Below are positions 16,621 through 42,383 of a stretch of 59,774 bases of DNA, piece by piece. A program made the position numbers and the translations under genes. The DNA comes from Acidobacteriota bacterium. Lineage in GTDB: Bacteria; Acidobacteriota; Terriglobia; Versatilivoradales; Versatilivoraceae. The stretch spans positions 1-59,774 of the forward strand of contig JAJDUG010000032.1 in assembly GCA_022826755.1 (NCBI GenBank), written 5' to 3'. The notes under the pieces are model-generated. The model worked only from the letters and a program-made list of their open reading frames with translations. It was not told the origin of the DNA and made no database searches. The first letter of the stretch is position 1; each line of letters starts with the position of its first letter.

Positions 16621-17818
16621 GAGCTCCCCAATCTCGGCACCGGTCCTGCTTGCGGCTTGGATGCTTGCCTTTTCGGGATCGGCCCGGCTCCACGCCTCCG
16701 ATCTGCCGAACCCTTCCGAAGTCATTCCCGGCGGAGAGACCCTGGTCTACGAGGTGCGTTGGGATCCCCCGGCCTGGCTGTTCTTCATCCCCACCATCAG
16801 CGCCGGCGAGATGACGCTCAAGTTCGATAAGGGAGTCGACGACCAGGGCAGGCCAATTTTCAGGATCACGGCCGATGCGGTCTCTGCAGGAATACTGCCG
16901 CGCCTGACCGGCATTACCGTCAAGGACCACTTCGAGTCGCTGGTGGCGGCCGAGGGCTTCTGCTCCAATCGCTTCACCAAGATCACACGGGAAGGCAGGC
17001 GGCACCGCGACGTGGTGCTCACTTTCGACCAGGAGTCCCATCGGGGCCGGTACCTGGCCTACGACGCCGGCCAGACCCCACCCAGGGAATTGAAGAACGA
17101 GGAACTGGAAGACCTTCCTCCCTGCGTGCAGGACTTCCTGTCGGCCATTTACCGCACTCGGCTGCGAGGACTCCGGGTGGGAGAAAACTATCCGTTGAAC
17201 GTGAGCGACAACGGGGTGGTCAAGGAAGTCGACATCCGGGCAGTGAGGCGCGAGCGGGTGGAGGCCATTGCGGGAACCTGGTCCACCATCAGAATCGACA
17301 CCGTTTCGGTGGGAGGGCTTTTCAAGGGGGGCGGAAGCTTCGTGCTCTGGTTCAGCGATGACCGGGCGAGAGTTCCCGTCAAGTACGAGGCCGAGGTCAG
17401 ATTCGGAAGGCTCTTCGGCACCATCAAGCACATGGAGGGCGCCGCGGGCAAGCGGGTCGATCCGCCCGCCGCGAACGCGGAGCCGCCCGCAGGCAAGTTA
17501 CACCAGTTCCTCGATGGGCGTTCCGGTCTCGTCGTTGATGGAGTTGGCGATCTTGAGAGGACGGCCGATGGGATGCATGTATTCCTTGGTCCAATCGATG
17601 CCGAACGCCTTGTAGATGGTCGCCAGCAGGTCCCCCACGGTCACCATCCGATCGGCCACATAGGCCCCGCGCTCGTCGCTGGCCCCGATCACCTGGCCGC
17701 CTCGGATTCCTCCGCCGCCCAACACCACCGAGAAACAATGGCACCAGTGGTCCCGGCCGCCGCCGACATTGAGGTCATGGGTCCGGCCGAACTCGCCCGT
17801 CACCACCACCATCGTTGA
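16613..17818 (+). CDS. DUF3108 domain-containing exported protein with antisense C-terminal extension
   Basis: Residues 1-28 form a signal peptide (PVLLAAWMLAFSG). Residues about 35-277 match the DUF3108 pattern of alternating beta-strands: GGETLVYEVRWDPPAWLFFI near the start, VTFDQESHRG-like strands in the middle and AEVRFGRLFGTIKHMEG at the end. Family members end about here, and their periplasmic role is unknown. In this frame no stop occurs until 17818. About 124 further residues are encoded by intergenic DNA plus 321 bp antisense to the 3' end of the convergent DUF1501 gene. The added residues are low-quality, ending in a His run. The biological stop may have been lost, or a frameshift may be present. 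The start ATG lies in a short repeat; no strong RBS is visible. Confidence 0.7.
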   Translation: MRASSPISAPVLLAAWMLAFSGSARLHASDLPNPSEVIPGGETLVYEVRWDPPAWLFFIPTISAGEMTLKFDKGVDDQGRPIFRITADAVSAGILPRLTGITVKDHFESLVAAEGFCSNRFTKITREGRRHRDVVLTFDQESHRGRYLAYDAGQTPPRELKNEELEDLPPCVQDFLSAIYRTRLRGLRVGENYPLNVSDNGVVKEVDIRAVRRERVEAIAGTWSTIRIDTVSVGGLFKGGGSFVLWFSDDRARVPVKYEAEVRFGRLFGTIKHMEGAAGKRVDPPAANAEPPAGKLHQFLDGRSGLVVDGVGDLERTADGMHVFLGPIDAERLVDGRQQVPHGHHPIGHIGPALVAGPDHLAASDSSAAQHHRETMAPVVPAAADIEVMGPAELARHHHHR

Positions 17819-18844
17819 CTCCAGCAGGCCTCTCTGCTCGAGATCCTCCAGCAAGGTCGACAGCGCCCGGTCCACCACCGGCACCAGGTAGTCGCGGTGC
17901 TGGTAGTCGTTGCCGAAATGGGTGTCCCAATCGCGGCCGGTCTCGGGCCGGTTCAGGTCCAGAGCCGTCACGAAGCGGCTGCCGGCCTCCACCATGCGCC
18001 GCGCGATCAGCACGCTCTGGCCAAAGGTATTGCGGCCGTAGGCATCCCGGGTCGCCTCCGACTCCTTGGAGAGATCGAAGGCCTCGCGGACCGCCGGTGA
18101 CAGGATCATGTTCCAGGCCTGGGCCCGAAAGGCATCCATGCTGGTATGCTCGGCCCTCTCCACCTTCCGGCGGTAGAGTTGGTCCACCACCCCCAGGAAG
18201 GTGCGCCGCGACTCCATGCGCTCTACCGTGAGCCAGTCCGGCAGGCTCAGGTCGGGCACCTCGAACCCCTGGTCGTTGGGATCGGGGATCTCCAGGGGTT
18301 CATATCGGGCTCCCAGAAAGTGGGCCTTGTAGTAGTTCCGGTACCCCGGATGAATCTTGGGGACGATGATGTTGGCCGGCACGCCCTCCCGCGGCCCCAT
18401 CTCTTTGGTGATGATGGAGCTGAAGGCCGGAAATTTCATGGAGGGGTTGGGCCGGTGCCCGGTCATGACATAGTGGTGCCCCATGCCGTGGTTGTTCTCT
18501 TCGGTATGCATGGAGCGAATGACCGCCAGCTTGTCCATGTGCCTGGCGGAACGGGGCAGAAGCTCGGAGATCTGAACTCCGGGCACGTTGGTGGAGATCG
18601 GCTTGAAGGAGCTGTTGGCCTTGGGGTCCCACATGTCGATGTGGCTGGGGCCTCCGTTGAGCCAGAGCAGGATGCAGGCCTGGGCCTTGCCCGGCAGAGC
18701 CGTCGCACCGCTCGAGCTTGCGAGCGGAGCTGCCTGCAGGTAACGGCTCAGGTTCATTCCCATGAAGCTCAGGGCGCCCACCCGCAGCATGGAACGGCGG
18801 CTGAGATCGGCTCCGTCAACAATCCAACGACTTGATTTTTTCAT
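17498..18844 (-). CDS. DUF1501 family exported protein (cassette B)
   Basis: DUF1501 proteins have an alkaline-phosphatase/sulfatase-like fold and are usually exported by the Tat route. Their substrate is unknown. The N-terminus carries SRRSMLRVGALSF, a twin-arginine-like signal. Family landmarks are LLWLNGGPSHIDMWDPK, the SMHTEENNHGMGHHYVMTGH segment with several potential metal-binding His, VTALDLNRPETGRDWDTHFGND, and the late VVTGEFGRTHDLNVGGGRDHWCH. The 448-residue length is normal. It follows the DUF1549/DUF1553 gene by about 21 bp on the same strand, as is usual for the pair. Its 3' end overlaps the convergent DUF3108 frame. It is a paralogue of the gene at 23905-25230. Confidence 0.88.
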   Translation of the reverse strand: MKKSSRWIVDGADLSRRSMLRVGALSFMGMNLSRYLQAAPLASSSGATALPGKAQACILLWLNGGPSHIDMWDPKANSSFKPISTNVPGVQISELLPRSARHMDKLAVIRSMHTEENNHGMGHHYVMTGHRPNPSMKFPAFSSIITKEMGPREGVPANIIVPKIHPGYRNYYKAHFLGARYEPLEIPDPNDQGFEVPDLSLPDWLTVERMESRRTFLGVVDQLYRRKVERAEHTSMDAFRAQAWNMILSPAVREAFDLSKESEATRDAYGRNTFGQSVLIARRMVEAGSRFVTALDLNRPETGRDWDTHFGNDYQHRDYLVPVVDRALSTLLEDLEQRGLLESTMVVVTGEFGRTHDLNVGGGRDHWCHCFSVVLGGGGIRGGQVIGASDERGAYVADRMVTVGDLLATIYKAFGIDWTKEYMHPIGRPLKIANSINDETGTPIEELV

Positions 18845-18865
18845 GGAACTGCCTCGTTAGGTCCC

Positions 18866-21436
18866 TCAGTGGTTTTCCGCAAACTCCCGGGAGGTAATCA
18901 GAGCCCACAGCAGGTCTTCCAGGGCCTCCCCGCGTTGGGGGTGGGAGCCAACCAGCCCGGTCAGCCGCTCCAGCTCCTCGTCCGCGGGAAAGCGGGAGAG
19001 GGTGGCCAGATAGAGTTCCTCGATCGCCTCCCGGTCGGAGGCTCTACTGTTGAGCAACGCCGCAAGGCGGCCCCCCGGCTGTCCGAGCTTGCGGTTGTAG
19101 GTCGAGCCCACCAGGATGTGCAGCGCCTGGCTGAGATTGGCCTTGTTGTCCCGTCCTCCCACCGAATCCCGCTGAGGCCGGCCATAGATGTCCAGGAACC
19201 GGGATCGATAGCTGGCGGGGAACTTCAGATTGATGGCCCGTGTTCCCGGAGCCGCCGTTTCGTAGGCGTAGATTTCACCCCCCGGAGGCACGAAATCCTC
19301 GGGGACGCCGGTCGCGGTCGAAATGGCATCCAACAGCACTTCGGCTTCCAGGGATCGAGGCAGCGCGTGGGAATAGTTGATGCCGTCTTCCCGATTCCCG
19401 GGATTGGTCCGGCTGGAGAGTTGATAGGTCCCGGACAGCACGATGCGCCGGATCAGGTGCTTCAGGTCGTAGCCGTGCTCCCGGAAATCCTCGGCCAGCC
19501 GTTGCAGCAGGCGGGGATGGGTGGCCGGATTCCCCAAGCGGAAATCGTCCACCGGTTCCACCAACCCTCTTCCAAAGAAGTGGCCCCAGTAACGATTGAC
19601 CGTGGCCCTGGCAAAGTCCGGATGGTCCGTCATCCAGCGAGCCAGCTCCAGCCGCTGATCGGTTCTGGAAGCAGGTGCCAGAACCGTCCCGTCCAGGAAG
19701 GCGGGTTCCACCCGGGTCCTGCTCCGGGGATGCGTGACCGGCTTGAAGACCAGCGCCGTTTGTCCCATCTCCCCGTAGTCCTGTTCCTGTCCCGCCGGAT
19801 CGTCATAGACGACCTGGTTCGACCCGCTCCCGATGTTGGTGGCTCGACCGAAGAAGGCGGCCAGGCCCCAGAACTGGTTCTGGGTCCAAAGGTCATAGGG
19901 ATGGTTGTGGCACTGGGCGCAATCCATGCGGCGGCCGAAGAAGACCCGGAACTGCTCTGCCGCCACCCGTTCCACGTTGGCTCCGGCCCGAATGAGGTGC
20001 TTGGAGGCCCCGGCGGCTCCCTGGGCGGCGATCCTCTCCTGGGCGACCAGGTCGTATGGCTTGTTGGAAGCCAGGCTCTGCCGCACCCACTCCCAGTAGT
20101 CGTAGGCGGAGAGCCGGATCCGAAACAGATCCGCCCAGCGAAAGGTCCAGAAGTCAACGTACTCGTCGGAATCGAGCAGGATTTCGACCAGCTTCTCCCG
20201 CTTGTCCGGGTGGCGGCTGGCCAGGAATTCCCGGACCCGCTCGGGAGGCGGCAGCGTCCCCGTTACATCCAGGCAGACGCGACGCAGAAACTCGGCATCG
20301 TCCGCCGGCGGAGAGGGAAGGATGTGGAAGCGCTCCAGCTTGTCAAAGACTTCCTCATCGACAAGGTTGTTCCGCGCCACTTGAGGAAAGCTGTCCAGGG
20401 TCCGGCGGATCACGCCGAAGCGGGCATGGCCCACCTTGCCCGCCGCCCGAACCAGGACCACGGCTTCGCCCACGCGCCTGCCCTGCACCCGGCCGCCGGA
20501 ACTCACCTCCAACACCTCCCGATCCAACGATTCAAAGCGAACCTGCTCGGTAAGGTCTTGGCTGCGGCCGTCGGAGAAATGAGCCGTGACCAGCACCTGG
20601 TAGCGGCCGTCCTCGAGCACCACTGCCTCTTGCGGAAACACTTCCAGCCGCTGGATGACCGGATCCGCCCCCGATGCCCGGCCGTAGGGGGCACCGGCTC
20701 GAATCCAGCTCAGAATGGTCCGGTAGTCCGCCGAGCCTTTTTCGAAGCGCATTCCTCCGCCATGGGGTTGGGCCATGGTCGGTTTCAGCAGGAGGAGGCT
20801 GTTTTCGGGTGCTTGGCGGTCGATGCGGGGATTTCGGGGCCCGCGGGGCTGGTCGGTGAGAACCTGGTAGCCGCCGCCCCGGACAATCCAGTCGTAATCC
20901 TCAGCGGGATGCATGGCATTGGAGGAGAGCCGAAACCCTCCCCGGCCCTTCACGCCCCCGTGACAACTGCTGCCATTGCAACCCTGCCTGGTCAGTATTC
21001 GGGTAATGTCGGTGATGAAGCTGACCGGTTCGGTCCTCCCGGATTGGCTGGTCCGGACCTCGGCCAGGGCGCTCCGGCCGCTCAGCGTGGCCCTGAGAGT
21101 GGCCTCGCCATCGGAAATCGAAACCAGCTTGCCTTCCGGACCCAGGCCGGCGACCTCGGGGCGGGAAATCGAGAGGCCGGCTTGCGCCGTCGCGTCCCGC
21201 TCCAGGCCGTCGGGGCCCGTCGCCAGCACCAGAACGCGCTGGCTGGCGCCGGCACCCTCCAGCACCACCTGTTCCGGCACCAGGCGCAGGGAGACGATTT
21301 CGGCGGAGGACGGTCGATCCTCGGCCAAGGCGCGGCTCGGACCCAGGGTTAAGAACAGGCCGAACGCCAAGCCGAGAGACCCGGCAAGGAGGTTGGCGCG
21401 GAACGGTCTATTTCGCCTGGCTGGCGCCATGATCAT
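18866..21436 (-). CDS. DUF1549/DUF1553 cytochrome-like protein with two Ig-like domains (cassette B)
   Basis: The 856-residue exported protein has a signal sequence near 14-37. A bacterial Ig-like domain (about 46-130) follows, then a cytochrome-like segment with CNGSSCH (Cys153, Cys158, His159), a CX4CH haem motif. A second Ig-like domain (about 262-345) precedes the DUF1549 region (about 355-565) and DUF1553 (about 600-850). A CAQCHNHP motif sits at about residue 506, a possible second haem or metal site. Function is unknown; these proteins travel with DUF1501 partners and are suspected to act on polymers in the periplasm or at the surface. Its counterpart at 25320-27869 has the same domain order. 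A 270-bp repeat lies between it and the PPC gene upstream. Confidence 0.87.
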   Translation of the reverse strand: MIMAPARRNRPFRANLLAGSLGLAFGLFLTLGPSRALAEDRPSSAEIVSLRLVPEQVVLEGAGASQRVLVLATGPDGLERDATAQAGLSISRPEVAGLGPEGKLVSISDGEATLRATLSGRSALAEVRTSQSGRTEPVSFITDITRILTRQGCNGSSCHGGVKGRGGFRLSSNAMHPAEDYDWIVRGGGYQVLTDQPRGPRNPRIDRQAPENSLLLLKPTMAQPHGGGMRFEKGSADYRTILSWIRAGAPYGRASGADPVIQRLEVFPQEAVVLEDGRYQVLVTAHFSDGRSQDLTEQVRFESLDREVLEVSSGGRVQGRRVGEAVVLVRAAGKVGHARFGVIRRTLDSFPQVARNNLVDEEVFDKLERFHILPSPPADDAEFLRRVCLDVTGTLPPPERVREFLASRHPDKREKLVEILLDSDEYVDFWTFRWADLFRIRLSAYDYWEWVRQSLASNKPYDLVAQERIAAQGAAGASKHLIRAGANVERVAAEQFRVFFGRRMDCAQCHNHPYDLWTQNQFWGLAAFFGRATNIGSGSNQVVYDDPAGQEQDYGEMGQTALVFKPVTHPRSRTRVEPAFLDGTVLAPASRTDQRLELARWMTDHPDFARATVNRYWGHFFGRGLVEPVDDFRLGNPATHPRLLQRLAEDFREHGYDLKHLIRRIVLSGTYQLSSRTNPGNREDGINYSHALPRSLEAEVLLDAISTATGVPEDFVPPGGEIYAYETAAPGTRAINLKFPASYRSRFLDIYGRPQRDSVGGRDNKANLSQALHILVGSTYNRKLGQPGGRLAALLNSRASDREAIEELYLATLSRFPADEELERLTGLVGSHPQRGEALEDLLWALITSREFAENH

Positions 21437-21451
21437 CGCCGCTGCCTTGAT

Positions 21452-21721
21452 TGAAACAACAGAAAAAAAGAGTTATCCACGAAGACACACGAAGGACGAC
21501 GAAGGGCCACCAAGAAAGACCATGTTCTTGACCCACTCGAAGGCAACGCCCCTTGGGTTCGGATGAGGGGAAACACAGCGAATCAGCTTCCCGCGCAACA
21601 GCTTCTCATTCTGTTTTCCGTTTATCCTGTCCATCCTGTATATCCATGTTCAATAAGTAGAAAACCAGTTTAACGGGACATTGTCCTCGTTCCCGAAAGG
21701 CCGCGATCCTCCGTTGTTTCA
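21452..21721 (-). mobile_element. Family-1 repeat, 270-bp copy with short terminal inverted repeats
   Basis: It begins TGAAACA (21452-21458) and ends TGTTTCA (21715-21721). Read on the minus strand it contains the same modules as the elements at 30255 and 55138: GAACATGGAT, ACAGGATGGACAGGAT, the CCCAAGGGGCGTTGCC block, CTTCGTGTGTCTTCGTGG and ATAACTCTTTTT. It lacks the roughly 60-bp GAACACGAATAG module. No coding capacity is seen. It fills most of the 326-bp gap between the PPC gene and the DUF1549/DUF1553 gene. Confidence 0.65.
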
Positions 21722-21762
21722 CCCTCGAATGATCCACCCCGTCGAATGCAACGGGGGCGTGG

Positions 21763-23679
21763 CTAATCTCCCTCTGCCAGTTGACTGACCGTCTTGGGCG
21801 TAACCGGGTCGATTACCGTCAGGAAGAGGTCCTTCAGGGGAAATTCTTGACCCGGCCGCCCCTCCGCCACCACCCGGGCAGTCAATCTCACCGGATGAGG
21901 CCGCAATCCAGCCGGAGTATTTCCCTCCGCCAACAGGGTCAAGGATACTTCCTGCTTGCGCGGGAAAAACCGGTCCGGATGGACTTCGTTCCGCGTGTTC
22001 CTGGCCTTCCCCGATTCTTGCTCCGGGACGACTGTCGGGAGCACCTGAATCCCCGGGGGCAGATTCTCCAGATGCAGCGTCACCATCTGGTCCAACCCTT
22101 CTTCCCTCTCCAGGGTCAGCTTCAGGGTTCTGGCTTCACCCGGAACCAGGTTGATGTGATCCCCGCCCGCCAGGGTCACCACGCCGATGTGGGGCACCTG
22201 AGGACGAACCAGCACCCGGTAGGTGAATCCCTTCCCTCCTCGCCGGGAAGTCAGGTCTCGCAGCCGCAAAATGTAGTCTCCGCCTTCCTCGAAGGTAAAG
22301 ATCGTCTTGGACTGGAGAAATCTCTGCCAGTAGGCGGAATTGTTCTCCACGCTTCGGTAGATGTTGGAGCAGACGGTTTGACCGGAGGCATCCAGCACCT
22401 CCAGCCAGGGGCTGAGGTCCGGGAACATCCGGTCCACGGTCTGGATCTCGAAGGCGACTCTCTGCCCCGCCTGAACCGAAAAACGGAAGTGGTCGAGGTC
22501 CCCGGGAGCATCGATCCTGCCTTGGAGAATGACGGGAAGCGAGACGGAAGAAGCCAACCCGGGGGTTTCGTCGGGTTCGGATTCCACCAGGGATGGATAC
22601 GCGGCCAGGGGTCGATTCCGACCGCCGGAACCGGAATCGGATGGGCCCGGCTTCCGGGTGTCCTCTCCCGCGGGAACCGCATCCGGATTACGGTCAGGGA
22701 CAGCGGCGCCACGGACCCGGAGTTGTTGCCGCCGTTCGGGATGGATCTCCCGCCCGAAGCCTCTTTCCCGCCAGTCGAGAAGGGGGGCGTCACGGGCTGG
22801 ACGGAAACGGGTCCAGTGGTCCTGACCTTGCCGGGGGCTTGCCCCGACCGGAGCGATCCGCAACTGGTAGTTGTGGCCGGGACCCCCTTTTTGAGCCAGG
22901 CTTCCGACGGCAACCAGGTAGCGGCCCGGTTTGCCGAAGCGGTGCCGCAGCCGGGGCCTCAGGATCCCGCCTTCTTTCGGCAGGAGAAAGATGGTGGAAT
23001 CCACGCGGGTTTCCAGGCGCCGGGCCTTGCCCTGGAACCAACCCCGGGAAGGCCGGTAGAGAATCAGTTCGGGATCGCGGAAGTGAATGGGAGAGTCCGG
23101 CAGGATTCCGCCGGCAACCAGGACTTCCAACTGCAGCTCCTGGTTCTCCAGCACCTCGAAGGCGTAGAAATCCACCTCCCCGTTCCGGCCGATTGTGCCG
23201 TTGAGATTGGCCGGCAACTCCAGAAGCTGAGCGCTGTCGGGGTCGTGGTGAGGGTCCTGCTGTTCCTGAACGACCTTCCCGTCGCTTACCACCAAAGTCA
23301 CCGGCCCCGACAGGCCCCACTCGGTGAGGAGTCGGAGGGAGTGAGCTCCGACGGGGGCATCCTCGGCGATATCGACCTGGATGAACACTTCCTGTCCCGG
23401 GGCGTAGGTCCTTCTCGAAAACCTGGCCTTTTCGAGCTTGATCTCCTTGACCGCCTTCACTTTGGCGGTCAGACGATCGCAACTCAGCCAGACGGACCGG
23501 ATCCCCTCCAGATCTTCTCCGCGCACTCGCAATTCCAGGGAGGAACCCGGAGAGCCCCCCAAGGGAGACATGGAGAGCAGTTTGGGATTTCTTTTCCGAT
23601 TCTCCGGGGCTTCCTTGGCCCAAAGCCCCCCGGCGGTCACAACCAGAACGATGGAGAGCAACCCTGCGAACCGCTTCAC
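21763..23679 (-). CDS. Exported PPC-domain protein (cassette B)
   Basis: This is a 638-residue secreted protein. The start is the GTG at 23679, giving a signal peptide with the core LLSIVLVVTAGGLWA. A perfect GGGAGG lies five bases upstream. The longer open frame to 23868 has no signal peptide and is rejected. The first part (about 25-110) resembles an IPT/TIG-like beta-sandwich (SPLGGSPGSSLELRVRGEDL). Three bacterial pre-peptidase (PPC) domains follow, recognised by repeats such as NGTIGRNGEVDFYAFEV, RIDAPGDLDHFRFSV and GGDYILRLRDLTSR. PPC domains bind or present substrate in secreted enzymes, but no catalytic domain is attached here. It pairs with DUF1549/DUF1553 and DUF1501 genes, and its paralogue is at 27875-29848. 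Confidence 0.82.
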   Translation of the reverse strand: MKRFAGLLSIVLVVTAGGLWAKEAPENRKRNPKLLSMSPLGGSPGSSLELRVRGEDLEGIRSVWLSCDRLTAKVKAVKEIKLEKARFSRRTYAPGQEVFIQVDIAEDAPVGAHSLRLLTEWGLSGPVTLVVSDGKVVQEQQDPHHDPDSAQLLELPANLNGTIGRNGEVDFYAFEVLENQELQLEVLVAGGILPDSPIHFRDPELILYRPSRGWFQGKARRLETRVDSTIFLLPKEGGILRPRLRHRFGKPGRYLVAVGSLAQKGGPGHNYQLRIAPVGASPRQGQDHWTRFRPARDAPLLDWRERGFGREIHPERRQQLRVRGAAVPDRNPDAVPAGEDTRKPGPSDSGSGGRNRPLAAYPSLVESEPDETPGLASSVSLPVILQGRIDAPGDLDHFRFSVQAGQRVAFEIQTVDRMFPDLSPWLEVLDASGQTVCSNIYRSVENNSAYWQRFLQSKTIFTFEEGGDYILRLRDLTSRRGGKGFTYRVLVRPQVPHIGVVTLAGGDHINLVPGEARTLKLTLEREEGLDQMVTLHLENLPPGIQVLPTVVPEQESGKARNTRNEVHPDRFFPRKQEVSLTLLAEGNTPAGLRPHPVRLTARVVAEGRPGQEFPLKDLFLTVIDPVTPKTVSQLAEGD

Positions 23680-23684
23680 GTTGA

Positions 23685-23690
23685 CCTCCC
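23685..23690 (-). promoter_or_regulatory. Ribosome binding site fixing the GTG start of the PPC gene
   Basis: GGGAGG on the minus strand, five bases before the GTG at 23679. It decides between this start and the 63-codon-longer open frame. Confidence 0.65.
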
Positions 23691-23904
23691 AACCCGTGTT
23701 TGTCACGCGGGTAGTGAAGATTCTACCGAACCCTGCACTTTCCCGAACAGGTGCGCCCGCCCAGCGAGCACACCTGCGATGAGAAACGCAAGGCCTGAAA
23801 ATGGAATTGGGAAGTAGGAACGGACGGCAGGCGCGGCAGCAGGAAAGGCGATCAGCGCACAGCCTCACCGGGACGGGCCGAACTCCGCGCTCGCCTGACC
23901 TGGG

Positions 23905-25230
23905 CTAGACCAGCTCGTGAACCGGATGGCCCTGCTTGTCCCCGATGGAATTGGCGATGTAGAGGGGCCGACCGTCCAGACCGGTATAGGTCTTGGTCCA
24001 ATCCACGCCCAAGGCCTTGTAAACCGTGGCGAAGAGATCACCGATGGTGACCTGGCGCTCGGCCACGTAAGCCGCTCGTTCATCGCTGGCGCCCACGATC
24101 TGTCCGCCCTTGATTCCGCCACCTCCCAACACCATGGACCAGCAATGGGCCCAGTGATCTCGACCGGCCCTGGCGTTGATTTTCGGAGTTCGCCCGAATT
24201 CGCCCATGGCCATGACCACCGTCGTCTCCAGCAGGCCTCTCTCCTCCAGTTCGGTCAGCAGCATCGAAAGCGCCTGATCGAAGCGAGGGGCCAGGTTTTC
24301 CGACAGCTTCTTGTCGTTGTCGAAATGGATATCCCATTCGCTGTGGTTGAAGCCCTCGGCGGTTACGAAGCGGCACCCCGCTTCCACCAGGCGACGGGCC
24401 AGCAGGACCGACTGTCCAAAGCGCGTCTTGCCGTAGGCTTCCCGGACCCCGTCCGGCTCCGCCGACAGGTCGAAGGCCTTCTTGACGTTGGGCGAGAGGA
24501 TCATTCTCAGGGCCTGCTCCTGGTAGGTGTCCATCTTGGAAAACCGGGCAAACTCCTCCTGTTGCCGGTAATGGTGATCGACCACCTTCAGGAAGGATTG
24601 ACGGTCCTGAAGCAGCTCGGCGGAGAGTGACTTGGGCAAGGTCAGATCGGGAATCTTGAAATCTTCCTTGCTGGGATCGGGAACGATCATGGGGTTGTAC
24701 TGGGGCCCCATGTTCCCCGCCATGTAGGAGTGCCCGTAGGAAAGGGGCGGAGTCACCACGTAGGGCGGGATATTGTTGCGCCCTCCGAGCTCTCGGGAGA
24801 CGATCGACCCCAGGCTGGGAAAGCGGAAGGCCGGACTGGGACGATGCCCGGTCATCCCATAATAGGTGCCTTCGGGATGATTCCCTTCTTCGCTGTGCAT
24901 GGAGCGGATGATGGACAACTTGTCCATGTGCCGCGCCACCCGGGGAAGCGTCTCGGAGATCTGAATCCCGGCCACGTTGGTCGAGATGGGCTTGAAATTG
25001 CTGTTGGGCTTGGGATCCCACATGTCCATGTGGGGCGGACCGCCGGAAAGCCAGATGAGAATGACCGACTCGGCCTTCTTGCGCGCACCGGTGCCGGTGG
25101 CGGCCATCGTGTCGGCCAGCCTGAAGTAGTCGCTCAGCGTAATTCCGAGGAACGTCAGGCCGCCCACCCTGAGGAACTGGCGACGCTCATAGTTTCCTCC
25201 GGTGCAGGAAAAACATTCCGGCAGGTTCAT
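23905..25230 (-). CDS. DUF1501 family exported protein (cassette A)
   Basis: This is a 441-residue relative of the product at 17498-18844. The start is the ATG giving MNLPECFSCTGG, with a GGGGGG run seven bases upstream; the frame opens 12 codons earlier. The signal region is ERRQFLRVGGLTFLGITLSDY, shown here as ERRQFLRVGG then LTFLGITL. Matching landmarks are LIWLSGGPPHMDMWDPK, SMHSEEGNHPEGTYYGMTGH, AEGFNHSEWDIHFDND and AMGEFGRTPKINARAGRDHW. Both copies end in the same motif, (P/V)(I/V)(E/H)ELV, after an (N/D)-rich loop. It is transcribed after the DUF1549/DUF1553 gene and before the PPC gene of cassette B, about 225 bp away. Confidence 0.88.
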   Translation of the reverse strand: MNLPECFSCTGGNYERRQFLRVGGLTFLGITLSDYFRLADTMAATGTGARKKAESVILIWLSGGPPHMDMWDPKPNSNFKPISTNVAGIQISETLPRVARHMDKLSIIRSMHSEEGNHPEGTYYGMTGHRPSPAFRFPSLGSIVSRELGGRNNIPPYVVTPPLSYGHSYMAGNMGPQYNPMIVPDPSKEDFKIPDLTLPKSLSAELLQDRQSFLKVVDHHYRQQEEFARFSKMDTYQEQALRMILSPNVKKAFDLSAEPDGVREAYGKTRFGQSVLLARRLVEAGCRFVTAEGFNHSEWDIHFDNDKKLSENLAPRFDQALSMLLTELEERGLLETTVVMAMGEFGRTPKINARAGRDHWAHCWSMVLGGGGIKGGQIVGASDERAAYVAERQVTIGDLFATVYKALGVDWTKTYTGLDGRPLYIANSIGDKQGHPVHELV

Positions 25231-25319
25231 CACTACCCCCCAATGTTGCTGCTTGCGAAGGGGCAAAGGCTGAATCGCCCGAACCCCTGATTCTCATGGA
25301 GCTTGCCAGCCCCCAATTA

Positions 25320-27869
25320 TCAATGATTGTGGGCAAATTGTCGAGAACTAATCAGGCCCCAGGTCAGACTCTCGACAGCTTCTCTTCGAGGGCGCTCGGC
25401 GATCATTTCTTCCAGCCGCGTCCGCTCCTCGGTGGTGGGAAACCGCGACAGGGCAGCCAGATAGAGCTCTTCCACGATTTCCCCGTCTCCGGCGCCGCTC
25501 CGGATCAGCCGGTCCACCCGCCCTCCGGCACTCGCCAGCTTTTCCGTAAACGTCTTCCCCGTCAACATGTGCAAGGCCTGGGCCAGGGCGGGCTCGGGCT
25601 TGCCTTCGGGAAGCGTCTTGCGCTCATTGCGTTCGAAGACGTCCATGAACTGGGAGGGCATGCTCGGCATCAGGGCGATGGCCCGAGTGCCCGCGGCAAA
25701 GCCCCGGTCGCCGCTGGCAAACGTCTCGGGAACCTCGGTCACCTGCGAGATGGCATCCAGCAGCACCGCCGCCGGCAGCGGCTTCGGCAGCGCGTGAGAG
25801 AAGTTCAGGCGATCGCCCCGGTTGGTCTCATTGGGGACGCCCGACAACTGGTAGGTCCTGGACTGGACGATCACCCGCATCAGGTGTTTCACGTCATGAC
25901 CGTTGACCCTGAAGTCCTCGGCCAGGGCTTTGAGCAATTCCGGGTGGGTGGGCGGATTGGTGGAGCGGAAGTCGTCCACGGGATCGACGATTCCCTTGCC
26001 CAGGAACCAGTCCCAGACGCGATTGACAAAGGCTTCGGCGAAATAGGGGTGGGACACGATCCACCGGGCCAGCTTCATCCGCAAATCGGTTCGCTCGCCT
26101 TCCGGCAATTCCCGCCCATCCAGAAAGCGCGGCTGGACCACCTTCTTGGTTTTGGGATGAACCACCCGATCCTTCAGTGCGGGGTCGTCCACCAGCAGCG
26201 AATCGTCCATGGCCGAATCCCGCAGATCCACCATCCTGCCGTAAAAGGCGGCCATCCCCCAGAATTGATCCTGGCTCCAGGCTTCGAAGGGATGGTTGTG
26301 GCAGCGGGCGCAGTCCAGCCGTCGGGCCAGGTAGATCCTCACCTGCTCGGCGATCATTTCCGCCGGGGGGATGATGAACCGCAACTGGTAGAAGAAGCGG
26401 GAGGGGCCGTCGTAGCCCTGGGCCGCAATCCTGTCCACCGCCAGTTGGTCGTAGGGCTTGTTGATGGCGATGCTCTGTCTCAACCACTCGCCGTAGAGCT
26501 GGGTATCCTTGCCCAACTGGGTGGCGCCGCCGTACCAGCGGAAGATCTCCCCGTACCGATAGAAGAGAAACTCTTCGAACTCGGGCGAATTCAGCAGGAT
26601 CTCGATGATCCGGTTGCGCTTGTCGGGATCCTTGGAAGCCAGAAATTCGCGGACCCGGTTGGGCGGCGGCAAGGTCCCGGTCAGGTCCAGACAGACCCGC
26701 CGGAGAAACTCGGCATCGCTGGAGAGCTCCGAGGGAACGATATTGAATTTCTTCAGCTTGGCGAAGACATGCCGGTCGATGAAGTTGTTCTCCGGCACCT
26801 CGGGATAGCTGGGAAGCGGATCGGCGATCACGCCGAAACGGACGGCTGCGGCCCGGCCCGGCGCTCGAACCAGGACGCTGGTCTCCCCGGTCTTGTGGGC
26901 CTTGACCAAGCCCCCTTCGTCGACGTCCACAACCGATCGGTTGATGGACTCGTAGACGACCTGCTGGGTGACATCCTCCCGCCGGCCGTCGCTGAGGCGG
27001 GCCGTGACCAGAATCTGCTGCTTGCCATCCAGATCCAGTACGCTTTCCCTGGGATGGACTTCCAGGCTCTCGATCTGGATGTTCTCGGACTCACCTTCCT
27101 CGCCGTAAGGCGCCCCGTCCTGAATCCACTGGAGGATCCTGGCGTACTGGGGGGAGTCGGGACCGAATCGGAGCCCGCCTCCGTGCGGTACCTGGAGAGT
27201 GGCCTTCTGCAGAATCAGGCTCTTCTCCGGATCCTTGAGATTCACCCGCGGATGGGGAGGTTCCTCCATTTCGGCCGTGAGGACTTCGAACTTCCCTCCC
27301 TCCACGATCCACTTGTAGTCGTCGCGCGGATAGGTGGCGTTGGTGGAAAGCTTGAAACCGCCCTGGCCGGGAACGGCGCCATGGCAGGTGGTGTTGTTGC
27401 AACCCTGCTGGGTCAAAAGCGACCCGATATCCCGGGGAAAGCTGAAGGGGCGCTTGTCCTGGGACCCCCCGATGGCGATGGCGGCGGTGGCCTTTCGGCC
27501 GGCCACTTCGGCGGTGAGAACCAGCTCGCCGTCCGCAAGCGGCTGGATGCGGCTGTGAGCGGCGAACCGGATCAACCCGGGCCTGGAGCCGGAAAACTCG
27601 GCCTGCGCGGTGAGATCGCGCTCCAGGCCGTCCGAGAACTTTCCCATCACCAGGAACTGTTGAGAAGCATCGGCTCCCAGCAGCCGGACCTCGGAGGGCA
27701 CCAGGCGGAGTGACACCAGTCGGGTGGAAGCCTCCTGGGCATTTCCCCCAGCCTCACCAGCCTGGGCAAAGGCCACCACCAAGCAGACTGCCCCCAGGGT
27801 CAGCACCGCAATCAGAGCGGCCGGCGTTCGGCGGCCAGCCGTGGTCTTTCTGCAGGATTTCCTTTCCAT
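25320..27869 (-). CDS. DUF1549/DUF1553 cytochrome-like protein with two Ig-like domains (cassette A)
   Basis: The 849-residue exported protein has the same plan as the product at 18866-21436. It has a signal anchor (about 17-38), an Ig-like domain (about 50-132), the haem motif CNNTTCH (Cys157, Cys162, His163), a second Ig-like domain, DUF1549, the CARCHNHPFEAW motif and DUF1553. Shared stretches include the CHGxxxGxGGFxLSxNAxxPxxDYxWIV pattern around the haem site and GTLPPPxRVREFLAS. The CX4CH spacing is therefore conserved between paralogues. The gene starts 5 bp after the stop of the PPC gene upstream, so the two are probably translationally linked. The DUF1501 gene follows after about 90 bp. 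Confidence 0.88.
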   Translation of the reverse strand: MERKSCRKTTAGRRTPAALIAVLTLGAVCLVVAFAQAGEAGGNAQEASTRLVSLRLVPSEVRLLGADASQQFLVMGKFSDGLERDLTAQAEFSGSRPGLIRFAAHSRIQPLADGELVLTAEVAGRKATAAIAIGGSQDKRPFSFPRDIGSLLTQQGCNNTTCHGAVPGQGGFKLSTNATYPRDDYKWIVEGGKFEVLTAEMEEPPHPRVNLKDPEKSLILQKATLQVPHGGGLRFGPDSPQYARILQWIQDGAPYGEEGESENIQIESLEVHPRESVLDLDGKQQILVTARLSDGRREDVTQQVVYESINRSVVDVDEGGLVKAHKTGETSVLVRAPGRAAAVRFGVIADPLPSYPEVPENNFIDRHVFAKLKKFNIVPSELSSDAEFLRRVCLDLTGTLPPPNRVREFLASKDPDKRNRIIEILLNSPEFEEFLFYRYGEIFRWYGGATQLGKDTQLYGEWLRQSIAINKPYDQLAVDRIAAQGYDGPSRFFYQLRFIIPPAEMIAEQVRIYLARRLDCARCHNHPFEAWSQDQFWGMAAFYGRMVDLRDSAMDDSLLVDDPALKDRVVHPKTKKVVQPRFLDGRELPEGERTDLRMKLARWIVSHPYFAEAFVNRVWDWFLGKGIVDPVDDFRSTNPPTHPELLKALAEDFRVNGHDVKHLMRVIVQSRTYQLSGVPNETNRGDRLNFSHALPKPLPAAVLLDAISQVTEVPETFASGDRGFAAGTRAIALMPSMPSQFMDVFERNERKTLPEGKPEPALAQALHMLTGKTFTEKLASAGGRVDRLIRSGAGDGEIVEELYLAALSRFPTTEERTRLEEMIAERPRREAVESLTWGLISSRQFAHNH

Positions 27870-27874
27870 GCGCG

Positions 27875-29848
27875 TTACTTTTCACCCCCGGTTTGCTGGC
27901 TCGCCAGTTGGCTCAGCTTCCTGGCGGGATTGGGATCCAGAATCGTCAATGGGATCTTCTTCACCGTCAGCCTGGGACCCAGCCGGCCCCCGACAATGGG
28001 CCGGGCGGTCACCGTGATCCAGACGGGCAGATGGGTGGGCGCCACGTCGTCCCGGGAATGAAGCACCACGCTGATGGTCTGGACCTTTGGCAGGTGGTGG
28101 TCGGGCCCCTTGATGACCGGCGGCCTGGGAGAGCCCGGCAACCTGTAGCTGCTGGCGCCGGCAAGAGCCTCGACCCCCGCCGGCAGGCCTTCAACCGACA
28201 CCGCGATCTGATTGGAGGGCAGGAAGAAACCCTCTTCCTGCTCCATGATCAAGGTGAGCTTGGCGGCTTCACCGGCCATCAGGTTGACGCGGTGGGGATC
28301 CACACGGCCATCCTCAAAGTCTCGCGTCCGGGTTTCCAGGTGGATGTCGCCCACGTGGGGGATCTGCGGCCGGACCAGCACCCGGTAGCGGAATCCCGGA
28401 TCGCCCTTCCTGAGAGTCACATCCCGGACCCGCAAGTAGTAGTCCCCCCCTTTTTCAAACGTGCCGATCACCTTGGCATCCACCGCGACCAGGTGAATGG
28501 CGGTGACGCTCCTGTACTTCTCGGTTCGGCGCAGGCTGCTGAACTGGTCCCGTCCCCTGGAATCGATGATCTGCAACAGGGGGTTGAAATCCGGCCGGCT
28601 GGCCTGGGGAGTCTCGACCTCAAAGGCCAGCTTCTGTCCAGAGTGGACCTTGAACTTGAAGAGGTCCCTGTCCCCCGGGTGCTGCACCACCCCTTCGACG
28701 ATTGACGGCACCGGAATCTCCACGGCGTCTTCCAACCGGTCGCCGGGTTCCTTTTCCGAATGGACGCCGAGGACAATGGCAGGGTCGGAGAGCTTCAGGT
28801 CAAGCTGGGCCGGGTCGGGCTCCTTGCCGCTCTCGTCTTCCTGGTCGCCCTCCGGCTGTTTGTCCGGGGCCGGACGCTCGTCCCTGACTCCCCTCGACCA
28901 CAACTGCCTGAGCCGGTCAGCGGTGAGTTTCCGGACGAAACTCCGCTCTGTCCAGTCGCTGAGCCCCGGAGTCTCACGGGAAGGCTGGTCGGGCGGCGCC
29001 ACCCGCAGTTGATAGACGAAGCCGGCCTTGGCCTGTCCGCCCAGCGAGCCGACCTCCACCAGGTAACGGCCCGCCTCCGGAAAACGGTGGCGCAAGCTGA
29101 CTCGTGTTCCTGTTCTCTGCCTCGGATCCCGGTCCGCGATGACGCGCTTCCCCTCATCCTTGTCGCTGAACGCCAGGCGGACCACCCGATCAGGATCGAA
29201 CCAGCTTCCCCGGCGGCCATGGATCGATATCTGGGAGCGAAAGACATTGGCCGCCGATTCCTGGCTGCGAGTCACTTCAAAAAGGAGCTCCTGCCCCCCG
29301 ACCACCTCGACCTGGTAGAAATCCATCTCCGCGGGCGTGTCGATCTGTCCGTTGACCACTACCGGGTATTCGATCGCCTGGGCCCTGTCGGGCTGGTCAT
29401 GGGGATCGGCCGACTCACGGATCACCCGGTCCGCGTTCACCCGAAAGTGGACCCGGTCGCTGATTCCCCCGGGAGTGACCACCCGCAACCAGTGGTCCCC
29501 CGGGCGGGCCGCCGCATCGATTTCCACGCCCACCCGCACCCGATACTCAGGCTCCTTCTTGTCCGCCTGCTTCTCTGCACCTTCTTTACTCTCCTCCACG
29601 ATCTCTTCAACAGCCCGAAACAGGGTCCGGATTCCCTCTTCCTCGGCAACCACCGCATAGGCCGACTGCAGCCCTTTCCCCCGGATCTCCACTTCCAGAG
29701 AGGTCCCGCGCTGTCCCCCCAGGGGAAACAGCCACATGGCCTCCGGCTCCTGCTTCGTTTTGGCCTCCTCAGCCGCCCCGGGATCGGCGCTAACCCAAAG
29801 CAGACAGCAGAGGGTCAACAGGACAGGGATTCTGAAGCGAGGCGCCAT
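27875..29848 (-). CDS. Exported PPC-domain protein (cassette A)
   Basis: This 657-residue secreted protein starts at ATG 29848 (MAPRFRIPVLLTLCCLLWVS), giving a typical signal peptide. The open frame to 30148 reads through a REP unit and is rejected. After the signal comes a sandwich domain with FPLGGQRGTSLEVEIRGKGL. PPC-type domains follow: NGQIDTPAEMDFYQVEV, GVVQHPGDRDLFKFKV and GGDYYLRVRDVTLR. An acidic/lysine-rich loop lies near 90-110, and another charged insert (DKQPEGDQEDESGKEPD) near 335. The architecture parallels the product at 21763-23679. It is the first gene of the cassette and is closely followed by the DUF1549/DUF1553 gene. Confidence 0.82.
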   Translation of the reverse strand: MAPRFRIPVLLTLCCLLWVSADPGAAEEAKTKQEPEAMWLFPLGGQRGTSLEVEIRGKGLQSAYAVVAEEEGIRTLFRAVEEIVEESKEGAEKQADKKEPEYRVRVGVEIDAAARPGDHWLRVVTPGGISDRVHFRVNADRVIRESADPHDQPDRAQAIEYPVVVNGQIDTPAEMDFYQVEVVGGQELLFEVTRSQESAANVFRSQISIHGRRGSWFDPDRVVRLAFSDKDEGKRVIADRDPRQRTGTRVSLRHRFPEAGRYLVEVGSLGGQAKAGFVYQLRVAPPDQPSRETPGLSDWTERSFVRKLTADRLRQLWSRGVRDERPAPDKQPEGDQEDESGKEPDPAQLDLKLSDPAIVLGVHSEKEPGDRLEDAVEIPVPSIVEGVVQHPGDRDLFKFKVHSGQKLAFEVETPQASRPDFNPLLQIIDSRGRDQFSSLRRTEKYRSVTAIHLVAVDAKVIGTFEKGGDYYLRVRDVTLRKGDPGFRYRVLVRPQIPHVGDIHLETRTRDFEDGRVDPHRVNLMAGEAAKLTLIMEQEEGFFLPSNQIAVSVEGLPAGVEALAGASSYRLPGSPRPPVIKGPDHHLPKVQTISVVLHSRDDVAPTHLPVWITVTARPIVGGRLGPRLTVKKIPLTILDPNPARKLSQLASQQTGGEK

Positions 29849-30254: not shown

Positions 30255-30585
30255 TGAAACAGGGGGGCGTTGATAAAGACGAACCACCAATGAACACGAA
30301 TAGGCACGAATCCGTATGGATCTGTTTCGGTTTTTCTTCATGGCCATCGGGAACAAGGAGCCTGTTCCGTTAAACCGGTGTGCTACCTATTGAACATCGA
30401 TGCACAGGATGCACAGGATTAACAGGACGAGACGCTGTGGCACGGGAAGCTGACTCGCTACGTTTCCCCTCACCCGAACCCAAGGGGCGTTCCCTTTGAG
30501 TGGGTCAAGAGAATTAGTCTTTCTTCGTGTGTCTTCGTCGTCCTTCGTGTGTCTTCGTGGATAACTCTTTTTCCCCGTTGTTTCA
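30255..30585 (+). mobile_element. Family-1 repeat, complete 331-bp copy
   Basis: It starts TGAAACAGGGGGGCGTTG and ends CCCCGTTGTTTCA, so the outer 7 bp are inverted repeats. Internal modules match the 334-bp copy at 55138-55471 almost base for base over long stretches (for example CACAGGATGCACAGGATTAA and GGCACGGGAAGCTGACTCGC). No open frame longer than a few dozen codons is plausible. The size and ends suggest a non-autonomous MITE-like element. No flanking target duplication was established. Confidence 0.65.
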
Positions 30586-30902
30586 AACAAGCCGGGCCCC
30601 CGACGACGGGGCGGATCATTCGCCGGTTAAACCACCCGACATCATGAGATTTTGGCAACAGGGAAATGTTCCGCCAAACCGGTCGGCTGCATCAGGGAAC
30701 ATGGATAGACAGGATGAACAGGGTATAGAGGACGAAACGCTGCTGCAAAGGAAGCTGACTCGCGCGAAACAAGACGCAGGATGACTGCAATCGGGGCAAG
30801 GCGGTTGAGGACGGTAATCCCGTAAATCCTGTCCATCCATGTAAACCAATCTTTTTGCGCTCGGGGCCGAGACCAAACGCCGGAACTTGAAGCAAAAAAA
30901 AA

Positions 30903-30952: not shown

Positions 30953-33900
30953 CTAGAATCCGAGACGCAAGCGGAAGAATACTCTCCGAGTGTGCCAACT
31001 GGCGGCATACTGCCCGAATCTCGGATCATTGAAGGTCAGAGAATTGGGCCCGCTGGGGTTGGTGTGGTTCAGCACGTTGGTGATATAGGCCTCCAGCTTG
31101 AAGTAGGGGCCATTCTCGTAAGGCGTCAACGGGAACACCTTGAAGACGTTCATGTTGAACTGAGGATCCCGCGGCTGCTGCAACACGCCTCTCGTCGCCG
31201 TTCCATAGGTTCCACTTCGAGGAATGGAGAAGCAGGAGGAATTCCAGTACGAGGTGTAGGGTACGGTGTTGTCCCCGAACCCGTTGGGATTACAGCCCGG
31301 CGTAATGTCCGGACGGCCTCCCGAACGGCCGACGTTGGGTGAATCGAAACCGCCGAAGTTCGGCGTGCTGCGTCCGCCCATGTTCATGGTCAGGATAGGC
31401 GTAACCGTCCACTGGCTGACCAACTGGTTGATCACGCCCGAGGCCCCCGAGAGGTACCGCTGCCCCTTGCCCAAGGGCAAGGAATAGACGGCCACGAGAC
31501 GGGATCGGAAGGGGAGGTTGCCATCCGTCCAACCCTTGTCGCGGGAGCGGTTGTAGGGATCCTCGGTGGCGAACCCACCGGGACCCACCCAGCCGAAGCG
31601 GCCGCCTTCCACGTCATTGAGAATGGACCGGTACTCGGCCCAGGCGCGAAGGTAGAGGCCGCTGGAGAACTGCCGCAGCAACTCGGCTTCCCAGCCGTGG
31701 TAGTTGGAGTTTCCGCCCAGGCGGTAGTCGGTGATGGAACCGTAGGGTTCCGCCCCGAACACCTTGCGGGATGCCGTGAAGGGAATGGTGCTGGCCCGGG
31801 GAATCTGCACGTTGACGTTGTAGGGCCAATGGGTCCCCTTGGAAGCCACATAGGAAAGACGGCCGGTCATGCCGCTGCCCAACTCCCTCTCCAAGGTAAG
31901 GTTCCACTGCTTGTCGGTGGGCCAGTTCTCGCTGCGGGTGTTGAGCAGAATGGCTCTTGGGTTTTGCAGCGAAGTGGCGCCCGTCCCGGGAGCCGGGAAG
32001 GCCTTGCTGAAGGTCAGGTTGGGAACACCGTTGATGATCTCGGTGGGCCCAAAGCTCTCGTTGAGCTCGAAGGGACCGCTGGTGAACCCGGAGATGGCCT
32101 GCTGCATGTTGTCCGGAGGGGTCAGTGGCACGGTATAGACCCCGAAACCGGCTCGGATCACCATCTTGTCGGTCAGGCGGTAGGCCACGCCGACACGCGG
32201 CTGGACGTGGACCAGCTTGTACTGCATCAGATCGGCGGGAAAGCCCGCGTCGCCGTTTCCGACCACCGGAATGCTCGGGGCAAAGCCGGCCACAACCCGA
32301 TGCAGCGACTGCTGGGGCACCACGAACCGGCCGGTGCCGCCATCCAGCAGGTGCTGGAGGTCGAAGTTGTACCACTGCCCCTGGGCATCCCGACCAGCGG
32401 TGTAATGCTGGAAGCGGAGACCCGGAGTGATGGTCAACCTGGGCGTCACCTTCCAGTCATCCTGGAAGAAGATCCCGAACTGTTGCGACCGCGGGCTCAG
32501 TTCCCCTCGCGCCTGGGCTATGGCGGTGGAGCGGGGCAGGCCCAGCAGGATGTCGCCGTAATCCCAGCCGGTGTAGTTGCCGGAGAAATCCCAGCGGCCG
32601 TAAGCATTGTTGGTGGGCCGGTAGCGATCGTCCAGACCCCAGATGTTGGAGAACCCCATCTTGAACAGGTGGGTGCCCTTGGTGACGGAGATGTTGTTCT
32701 TCAGGTGAACGGCATTGGCGTCGGTCCGGCTGCCGTATCCGGCGGCGCCGCCCCCCAGCGCATTGGTCAGACGGGCGTCGAAGGCGCCGCTGATGTTGGA
32801 GAGGTTGCCGATGGAACGGGCCGTGATCTGAGGCGCTCCCGCGAAGCCCTGCGGAATCTTGCCTTCACGTCCGCCGAAGTCGATCAGCCCCTGGGGGTCG
32901 ATCAGCCTCAGCAGGTCGCTTCCGGCGCAACCGCTCTCGATCAGGTAGAGCTGCTCGTTGTAGCCGATCGAGAATTCGTTGATCACCGAAGGCGAGAAGA
33001 CGTGGCTGTCCAGAATGCTCCAGGCGCGGGTGGGATCGTGACCGGTACGCCCGCAATCCAGCGGCCCGTGGTCCCACTTCGTCTCGCTGCTGTTGCGGGT
33101 GTAGCGGAAGTGGTTGAACGAAATGGTGTTGGACTCGTGGATCTGGTGGTCGAAGCGGTAGTGCCAGTACTCCTCGTCACCGCTGTTCTCGTTTATCCCG
33201 GTTCGGTTGGTCGTCAGACCGGGTCGTTCCGGCAGGGGCAGCAACTCGGTGAAGCGAACTCCCAGCGGATGGAACATGTCGCTGGGAATGGTGTTGTTGG
33301 GGAAGGGCGTCATGGTGTAGGGATTCATGATCACGCCCTTGCCCGAGGCATCCCTGAGCCCCGAGAATTCGGCGACTTCGCTCAAGTTTCCCGTTCTCAT
33401 CAGAGGAGTGGGATAGGTGAGGTTGGGGTTGATCTCCAGGGTGAACCTGCTGCTCGGCTGCCACAGGAAGTGGAAGAAGCTCCTGTTGCGGCCATCATAG
33501 ATCTTGGGGATCCAGATGGGCCCGGCGGCTTCGTAGGACCACTTCAAGTTGGGCGTCTCCGGCTTGGGCCTGCTCTTCAGAGAACGGTTCTTGCCGATCA
33601 GGCGAGCATGCCTGAAATCGTTCCAGATCTCGCCGTGGAACTGGTTGGTTCCGCTGCGCCCCACGCCGATGATGTTGTTGGCGTGCTGGAACTCGGCCGG
33701 CGCGTTCAGGGTCTTCAAATGGACTTCCTGCAGCACTTCCTGCGGAAAACGGAAGGTGCCGTAGGCCAGAGTCAGAATCCCGTCCTGGGAAGCCGAGACG
33801 TTGTTGGCGTAGGCCCCGTGAATCTCGTTCCGGTTCTGAACTCCGGGGGCCGCACCCACCGTGTAGATCAGGCTGGCCGCCACGTTGGTGTAATAGACTT

Positions 33901-34342: not shown

Positions 34343-34350
34343 TAGCAAAA

Positions 34351-36982: not shown

Positions 36983-37063
36983 CACCGTCACAGCCGAGTT
37001 CAGGCCTGTTGCATCCGCCGGGCTCTGCGATCTGTAGAATCCCGCGCCAAGGTACCGAACCAA

Positions 37064-37852
37064 GTTGATTATGAAACCCTATCGGTGCCGAAATCAAGAC
37101 TGCAGCACCCGTCGGGTGCACCCCGGATCTGGTGGGCGAGGAGCGCGGGAGGTCGGTTTGCCGCCCTCCGCATCAGCCTTCGCCATTCGGCTCGACTTCT
37201 GCGACTCCCCCTCGAGGGGGGAGTGATACGTGAGGCTTGCAAACGGCCCCGTGCCCCATTCCTGGGCGTGGTGTAAATCATGTTCCCGGTTTGTTGTGTG
37301 GATGATGCCCACCCGGGAACGCGGGCGTCCCGCCCGCACATTTACCCGGCACAGCCTTGGCCGACTGCGCCGCAGGGATGGAACGGCAACGGGGCCTTGC
37401 CCTTCATTCGGACTGGCCAGCGCGGTTCACGCCGGCAGGGTGGCTGCCTGCCGGCAACCTTGCGCCGACGCTCCATCTCCTCCAACGAGGAATAAGGATG
37501 CGGGCGAGACGCCCGCGTTCCCGGGTGGGGGGCCAACGCGGCGTCCCGTAAGAGCAGGTCAGCGTCGGACTGGGGGCGTGTGAGCTTACGCCGCCCCAGG
37601 CCACAACCTCCCGCCGTGGTTGGAGAGGCAGGTGGCGATCGCCCCCTCCGCATCAGCGTTCGCCTGTAACTTGGCTGGCGCGAACCCGCGACGGCGCACA
37701 AGTCCTCGCCATTGGGCTCGGCTTCTGCGACAGGGGACCCCTCCTGCCTTGTGATCGCCTCGGCCGGCGACCTATAATGTCCCCCTTTCTTGCGGCGGCC
37801 GGTCCCGCGGGCCCGCCGGAAGCGGGTCCTCTTCCCACAGCCATTCAAGGCC
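37064..37852. other. Gene-free interval around a BIME-like element
   Basis: No gene is credible between the cytochrome and the sulfatase, which are divergent. Besides the BIME at 37312-37525, a further repeat occurs: CATCAGCCTTCGCCATTCGG at 37171-37190. It recurs in broken form at 37651-37731, with about 45 bp inserted, and inverted at 55047-55066 beside another BIME. The sulfatase promoter should lie in the last 100 bp, but no consensus is evident. Confidence 0.5.
37312..37525. mobile_element. BIME-like element, complete 214-bp copy
   Basis: Two 27-bp ends (37312-37338 and 37499-37525) are inverted copies with one mismatch, and each folds as a GCGGGCG...CGCCCGC hairpin. The core contains GGCACAGCCTTGG and TTCACGCCGGCAGGGTGGCTG. 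The same core is found at 59592 onward and, more diverged, at 54806-55018. About 40 bp to the left (TGTTCCCGGTTTGTTGTGTG) is also shared with the 54806 copy. The element is non-coding. Confidence 0.75.
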
Positions 37853-40381: not shown

Positions 40382-40403
40382 CCTGAGCCAGAGGAGAAAT
40401 TTC

Positions 40404-42161: not shown

Positions 42162-42168
42162 AGCGCCC

Positions 42169-42325: not shown

Positions 42326-42370
42326 GGCAGCAAGTGGCTGCGTGCACAATCCATTTCAATACGTTGATTC

Positions 42371-42375: not shown

Positions 42376-42383
42376 TTCCATCG

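Follow-up and report, generated by a model that had tools for sequence, protein, structure and literature searches.

Consecutive PPC, DUF1549/DUF1553 and DUF1501 gene trios in an Acidobacteriota genome represent ancient, independently kept paralogues of a possible extracytoplasmic module

Analysis of a 59,774-nucleotide stretch (hereafter the window, meaning its full length; contig JAJDUG010000032.1, assembly GCA_022826755.1) from an Acidobacteriota bacterium of the Terriglobia (host genome 4.62 Mb in 81 contigs) identified six intact open reading frames (ORFs) on the minus strand at positions 17498–29848 that form two gene trios, cassette A and then cassette B in the order of transcription. 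Each trio encodes a PPC-domain protein, a DUF1549/DUF1553 (PSCyt2-PSD1) protein and a DUF1501 protein. Many Planctomycetota, Verrucomicrobiota and Acidobacteriota carry dozens of DUF1549, DUF1553 and DUF1501 genes, for which we know of no assigned function. The features of the two cassettes were as follows.

27875–29848, minus strand: PPC-A, predicted exported, with an N-terminal Ig/TIG-like (Ig, immunoglobulin) domain and two PPC beta-sandwich units
~29416–28994 and ~28747–28349, minus strand: the two PPC units of PPC-A
25320–27869, minus strand: DUF1549/DUF1553-A (PSCyt2-PSD1), with signal peptide, Ig-like domain, CX4CH cytochrome-like domain, Big_2, PSCyt2 and PSD1
27381–27401, minus strand: CX4CH motif of DUF1549-A (C157, C162, H163), a probable c-heme site judging from its sequence
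26298–26312, minus strand: CXXCH motif of DUF1549-A (C520–H524, then xHP), inside PSCyt2
23905–25266, minus strand: DUF1501-A, with twin-arginine signal RRQFL and a predicted alkaline phosphatase superfamily fold
21763–23682, minus strand: PPC-B, probable GTG start, ORF open as far as 23868
18866–21436, minus strand: DUF1549/DUF1553-B
20960–20980, minus strand: CX4CH motif of DUF1549-B
19907–19921, minus strand: CXXCH motif of DUF1549-B (CAQCH, residues 506–510)
17498–18844, minus strand: DUF1501-B, with twin-arginine signal RRSMLR

Pfam matches and the six intact ORFs bore out a preliminary description of this DNA, made from its letters alone, which had placed the three gene types in this order twice on one strand. 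The two DUF1501 copies matched PF07394 with E values of 1.7e-99 and 2.6e-98 (334.1 and 330.2 bits, cut-off 27), while PSCyt2/DUF1549 (PF07583; 1.1e-35 and 3.1e-39) and PSD1/DUF1553 (PF07587; 3.9e-38 and 3.5e-45) were both matched above cut-off and followed each other in that order. The PPC family (PF04151) was matched by the window copies at E 0.0026 and 0.0015 (19.1 and 19.8 bits against a cut-off of 25.9), and 35 of 40 homologues of the PPC protein matched it with E values no higher than 0.01, the lowest being 2.8e-18. Pairwise alignment of the cassettes, the comparison that the preliminary description had proposed, paired the corresponding members with 34% identity over 662 columns for PPC (E 9e-92), and 49% (E 0) and 55% (E 7e-170), both over nearly the full length, for DUF1549/1553 and DUF1501, respectively.

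The origin of the tandem was addressed with trees of each of the three genes over the 13 trios of the host genome and with trees of the concatenated trios (FastTree and a 20-row IQ-TREE analysis). Cassette A was sister to a trio on contig C65 in all three gene trees (support 94/98 for DUF1549, 99/98 for DUF1501 and 91/95 for PPC), and cassette B was sister to a trio on contig C1 (100/99 for DUF1549, 100/100 for DUF1501), the PPC tree leaving B unplaced; A and B also fell in different clades in the concatenated trees. Constraining A, B and their orthologues to one clade gave a tree 247 log units worse (approximately unbiased test, p-AU 7e-46). Within the family, a genome from a different genus (G008) carries two trios side by side, the first orthologous to A and the second to B by reciprocal best hit for all three genes, and the tandem was also found within the genus of the window (L066; G003, locus L196; G006, locus L197). 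Separate clades together with tandem orthologues in another genus indicate that the tandem is old, and A and B are therefore old, distinct and separately maintained paralogues. The preliminary description had read the tandem as a duplication of the three-gene unit, and a recent event of this kind giving two redundant copies, as the shared gene order and strand, the direct adjacency and the 34–55% identity might suggest, is hardly credible against the different clades of A and B, the rejection of any tree uniting them and the occurrence, in another genus, of an orthologue of each in the same tandem arrangement. Either two distinct paralogues were brought side by side, or the unit was duplicated very long ago and both halves went on to found further trios; in the latter case, which is possible, copies of each half would have dispersed after the duplication.

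Our survey of the host genome returned 51 matches to DUF1549 and 52 to DUF1501, most of them lying next to each other in pairs (about 50 pairs), and the DUF1549 proteins split into two classes by score. About 35 pairs belonged to a classical class in which PSCyt1 with CXXCH is followed by PSCyt2 and PSD1, an architecture verified by Pfam on the window pair at 44577–48941 and on L064 and by motifs on two more. The smaller class, which includes both cassettes, has Ig-like domains framing a CX4CH cytochrome-like domain. A profile of PPC-A and PPC-B found 13 loci in the host genome and 13/13 adjoined a pair of this smaller class, giving 11 trios besides A and B, and the same search found no PPC gene beside the approximately 35 classical pairs. 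Weaker-scoring DUF1549 genes with DUF1501 and without PPC were present on contigs C9 and C77. Two further loci departed from the standard trio: on contig C46 a trio-class DUF1501 gene (L061:7887–9227) had neither DUF1549 nor PPC neighbours and is possibly a cassette remnant, and in the trio on contig C34 a PD-(D/E)XK nuclease-like gene (L056:10991–12064) lay between DUF1549 and DUF1501.

When named genomes were scanned with the DUF1549 alignment, at least 80 loci emerged, in records labelled Acidobacteria, Planctomycetes, Verrucomicrobia, Poribacteria, Hydrogenedentota and others, and neighbours were counted for the 47 loci, among the matches listed, with at least 4 kb of flank on each side. 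PPC was found near 37 of these 47 anchors and DUF1501 near 33 (both near 30, neither near 7), so that PPC joins the CX4CH DUF1549 class as often as DUF1501 does. Four gene orders were observed, namely PPC-1549-1501 in Acidobacteriota, 1501-PPC-1549 in Planctomycetota and Verrucomicrobiota, 1549-1501-PPC at two of the listed loci (one of them in Poribacteria) and 1501-1549-PPC at three, and the members were on one strand in every case. Chance adjacency is ruled out by this permuted order across phyla, and as the company is kept while the order varies, shared function explains the trio better than shared descent of a block of DNA. The association of PPC with the CX4CH subclass is thus above chance in the host genome (13/13 PPC loci), among the listed anchors and across gene orders. 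The neighbourhood search proposed in the preliminary description therefore upheld the PPC protein as a regular third member of this subclass in several phyla, but the word "obligate" used there is too strong, as three of the listed anchors had a DUF1501 neighbour without PPC, seven had neither and the classical majority lacks PPC.

Downstream of the 1501-PPC-1549 arrangement in Planctomycetota and Verrucomicrobiota, 20 of the 23 genes examined encoded a PSCyt1-WD40 fusion (for example L087, L090, L096 and L122), which is likely a fourth member of that arrangement, and in Acidobacteriota the genes that follow the trios differed from cassette to cassette. Among 149 sampled Acidobacteriota genomes, 8 had strong relatives of the PPC protein, a patchy distribution in which the genome of the window and one other family hold many copies and members of a third family a single copy each. 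The trios of two records labelled Planctomycetia and Acidimicrobiia (L068 and L069) grouped with acidobacterial ones, and these are probably misbinned or mislabelled contigs.

Sequence and model analysis of DUF1549-A showed an N-terminal signal peptide followed by an Ig-like domain (residues ~47–130), the cytochrome-like domain (~140–253), Big_2 (~264–349), PSCyt2 and PSD1, and the predicted structure scored well (predicted local distance difference test, pLDDT, 87; predicted template modelling score, pTM, 0.87). PSCyt1 reached at most 11 bits in the window copies against a cut-off of 22, with CX4CH in place of the classical CXXCH, which places these proteins outside the classical PSCyt1-PSCyt2-PSD1 class. 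C157, C162, H163 and H229 were invariant in 52 multi-phylum sequences, the CX4CH motif was also invariant in the 13 copies of the host genome, the PSCyt2 residues C520, C523, H524, H526 and P527 were invariant, and both motifs were found in 52/52 of the multi-phylum sequences. Because of its likeness to PSCyt1 domains, the CX4CH motif may bind heme, with His229 as a candidate second ligand, and genes for cytochrome c assembly proteins are present in the host genome. A weak relationship of PSD1 to DUF1800 was seen in 10 of 52 members, with E 1.6e-4 at best. Structure and sequence searches, in which the helical PSCyt2-PSD1 half was not searched alone, matched the Ig-like domains only and returned no solved homologue of that half.

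The twin-arginine residues R28 and R29 were invariant in the 13 DUF1501 copies of the host genome. The model of DUF1501-A (pLDDT 86) had its best structural match to a phosphodiesterase (Z 19.6, 3.2 Å over 245 residues), and the fold search returned 490 chains at Z of at least 8, so the predicted fold is that of the alkaline phosphatase superfamily, as in phosphodiesterases and sulfatases. Six residues (H130, D312, H314, D330, D370 and H371) were invariant across phyla and could form a metal site. The Ser-Asp-His-Gly segment of the superfamily aligned with Gly-Glu-Phe-Gly (GEFGRT) in DUF1501, a residue match that is only a hint as the alignment with the phosphodiesterase is weak (E 0.028, probability 1.8%), and no nucleophile position was evident from conservation among the host copies and in the cross-phylum alignment. 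Given the alignment of the SDHG segment to GEFGRT, catalysis by DUF1501 is not to be assumed.

The PPC protein holds two PPC units after its Ig-like N-terminal domain (hhalign 99.6%, E 7e-25), and among the matches of its profile was the clostridial collagenase binding domain (E 6.6e-11). The ratio of non-synonymous to synonymous substitution (dN/dS) indicated purifying selection on all six window genes against orthologues of the same genus, ranging from 0.20–0.27 for PPC and 0.14–0.18 for DUF1549 to 0.06–0.07 for DUF1501. Identity to the G008 orthologues followed the same order (PPC 44–58%, DUF1549 62–74%, DUF1501 77–88%), and PPC is the fastest diverging and least constrained member. It is plausible that PPC presents a substrate to its partners, a role with which its fast divergence and collagenase-like binding fold agree.

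Eight cassettes of the host genome had a reciprocal best partner in G008 and in seven of these all three genes selected the same cassette, the exception being one DUF1501 gene (C65). Distance matrices were correlated between DUF1549 and DUF1501 (r 0.61, p 0.0002) and between PPC and DUF1549 (r 0.43, p 0.017), and more weakly between PPC and DUF1501 (r 0.23, p 0.10). Each trio has thus been inherited as a set, with its members hardly reshuffled between cassettes.

These findings can be interpreted, tentatively, as a matched-set extracytoplasmic module in which a binding PPC protein, a two-heme DUF1549/1553 protein and a DUF1501 protein of altered alkaline phosphatase fold form a complex. From their signals and domains, all three proteins would act outside the cytoplasmic membrane, where the products of each trio would assemble with one another. 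Binding and specificity would reside in the PPC protein and redox chemistry in the DUF1549/1553 protein, at two c-type heme sites; the DUF1501 protein would be exported already folded by twin-arginine translocation (Tat) and carry a metal site that sets it apart from ordinary phosphatases and sulfatases. The ligand or polymer served may differ between cassettes, with 13-fold paralogy widening the range. Several points weigh against this interpretation. Ten of the 47 listed anchors lacked PPC and seven of those lacked DUF1501 as well, so that DUF1549 is able to stand alone, and since a query taken from PPC-bearing cassettes selected the anchors as its best matches, the association may be inflated. 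The genes flanking the cassettes vary and indicate no single substrate, and heme binding, contact among the three proteins and any turnover are predictions from sequences and models.

A module for electron transfer, with electrons handed on by the hemes of DUF1549, PPC reduced to an anchor or dock for the complex and substrate binding incidental, is unlikely but would account for the two c-type motifs per DUF1549 protein, the PSCyt1-WD40 cytochrome downstream of most examined planctomycete and verrucomicrobial loci and a multiheme cytochrome gene near the cassettes (34775–37063); it leaves the 13 diversified paralogues and the fast divergence of PPC unexplained, and the genes after acidobacterial trios offer no constant partner from one cassette to the next. 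We consider rather doubtful a non-catalytic structural or adhesive envelope complex, in which Ig-like and PPC beta-sandwiches build a surface layer or binding array and DUF1501 is a degenerate alkaline phosphatase fold. The Ig-like domains of the DUF1549 protein do match LigA and S-layer domains, and the GEFG segment of DUF1501, weakly aligned as it is, and the lack of an evident conserved nucleophile would fit a degenerate enzyme, but the six invariant DUF1501 residues, the lowest dN/dS of the three proteins and the invariant cytochrome-type motifs, which point to redox chemistry, argue against it. A bolder form of the matched-set module, a hitherto undescribed redox machine of three secreted parts that occurs in several phyla, is improbable; here a swappable PPC protein would set the substrate while the two-heme DUF1549/1553 protein and a re-tooled phosphatase-fold protein oxidatively attack polymers, with 13 matched versions in one genome and a logic that would be comparable to the substrate-specific loci of Bacteroidota.

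Related gene pairs have been described elsewhere. PSCyt2 genes of Verrucomicrobia are paired with an unknown family at high copy number, with Big_2-containing architectures (He et al. 2017, PMC5615132), and in Rhodopirellula baltica there are 41 copies of each domain, for which a redox function was suggested along with an extracytoplasmic function (ECF) sigma factor (PMC2754498). The trios share with the planctomycete-type PSCyt1-PSCyt2-PSD1 proteins a PSCyt2 and PSD1 core, a regular neighbour and many copies per genome, but differ in an Ig-framed N-terminal domain with CX4CH that falls below the PSCyt1 cut-off and in a PPC gene as regular third member. DUF1501-DUF1800 pairs, some of which adjoin bacterial chitin synthase genes and which occur in Agrobacterium vitis as two tandem pairs of differing origin (PMC5122149), likewise place a twin-arginine DUF1501 beside a partner to which PSD1 is weakly related, whereas PSCyt2 and PPC members are not described there. 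With the phosphodiesterases and sulfatases of the alkaline phosphatase superfamily DUF1501 shares its predicted fold at a sequence identity of about 15%, but from the sequence the canonical metal-binding Asp-His pair does not appear at the expected place and the conserved nucleophile is not evident. Secreted hydrolases such as clostridial collagenase carry PPC domains that are comparable beta-sandwich binding domains, while here the PPC units make up a protein of their own, in which no catalytic domain was recognised. The DUF1549/DUF1553-DUF1501 pair was therefore already known, and the PPC third member and the permuted trio appear to be new, as no account of them or of the CX4CH subclass as PPC carrier was found in the searchable literature, with subscription papers outside that search. 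A trio with a fast-evolving PPC protein provides a subunit to pull on and a prediction of matched specificity, and 13 paralogues with cross-genus orthologues constitute a natural experiment, which turns a vague DUF problem into a testable complex.

No RNA element or riboswitch was found in the window at Rfam gathering thresholds. Three further features lay beyond the cassettes.

30953–34348: TonB-dependent-type outer membrane protein, adjoining the 34775–37063 gene
34775–37063: tetratricopeptide repeat (TPR) protein, encoded upstream of the cassettes, whose C-terminal region is a multiheme cytochrome (Cytochrome_C7-like)
44577–48941: third pair of DUF1549 and DUF1501 genes, belonging to the classical PSCyt1 class and lacking PPC

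The third pair was listed together with 37790–39325 and 40341–43523, and a sulfatase and two BNR-repeat proteins are nearby. An interspersed repeat of approximately 250–295 bases with at least 40 copies in the genome was also present, at 21446–21740 (minus strand) and, inverted, at 30347–30763. The first of these copies separates PPC-B from DUF1549-B, and in G003 (L196) the same junction is without the repeat and the PPC stop codon lies three bases before a DUF1549 start codon, so that the repeat looks mobile and appears to interrupt a once tightly coupled gene pair.

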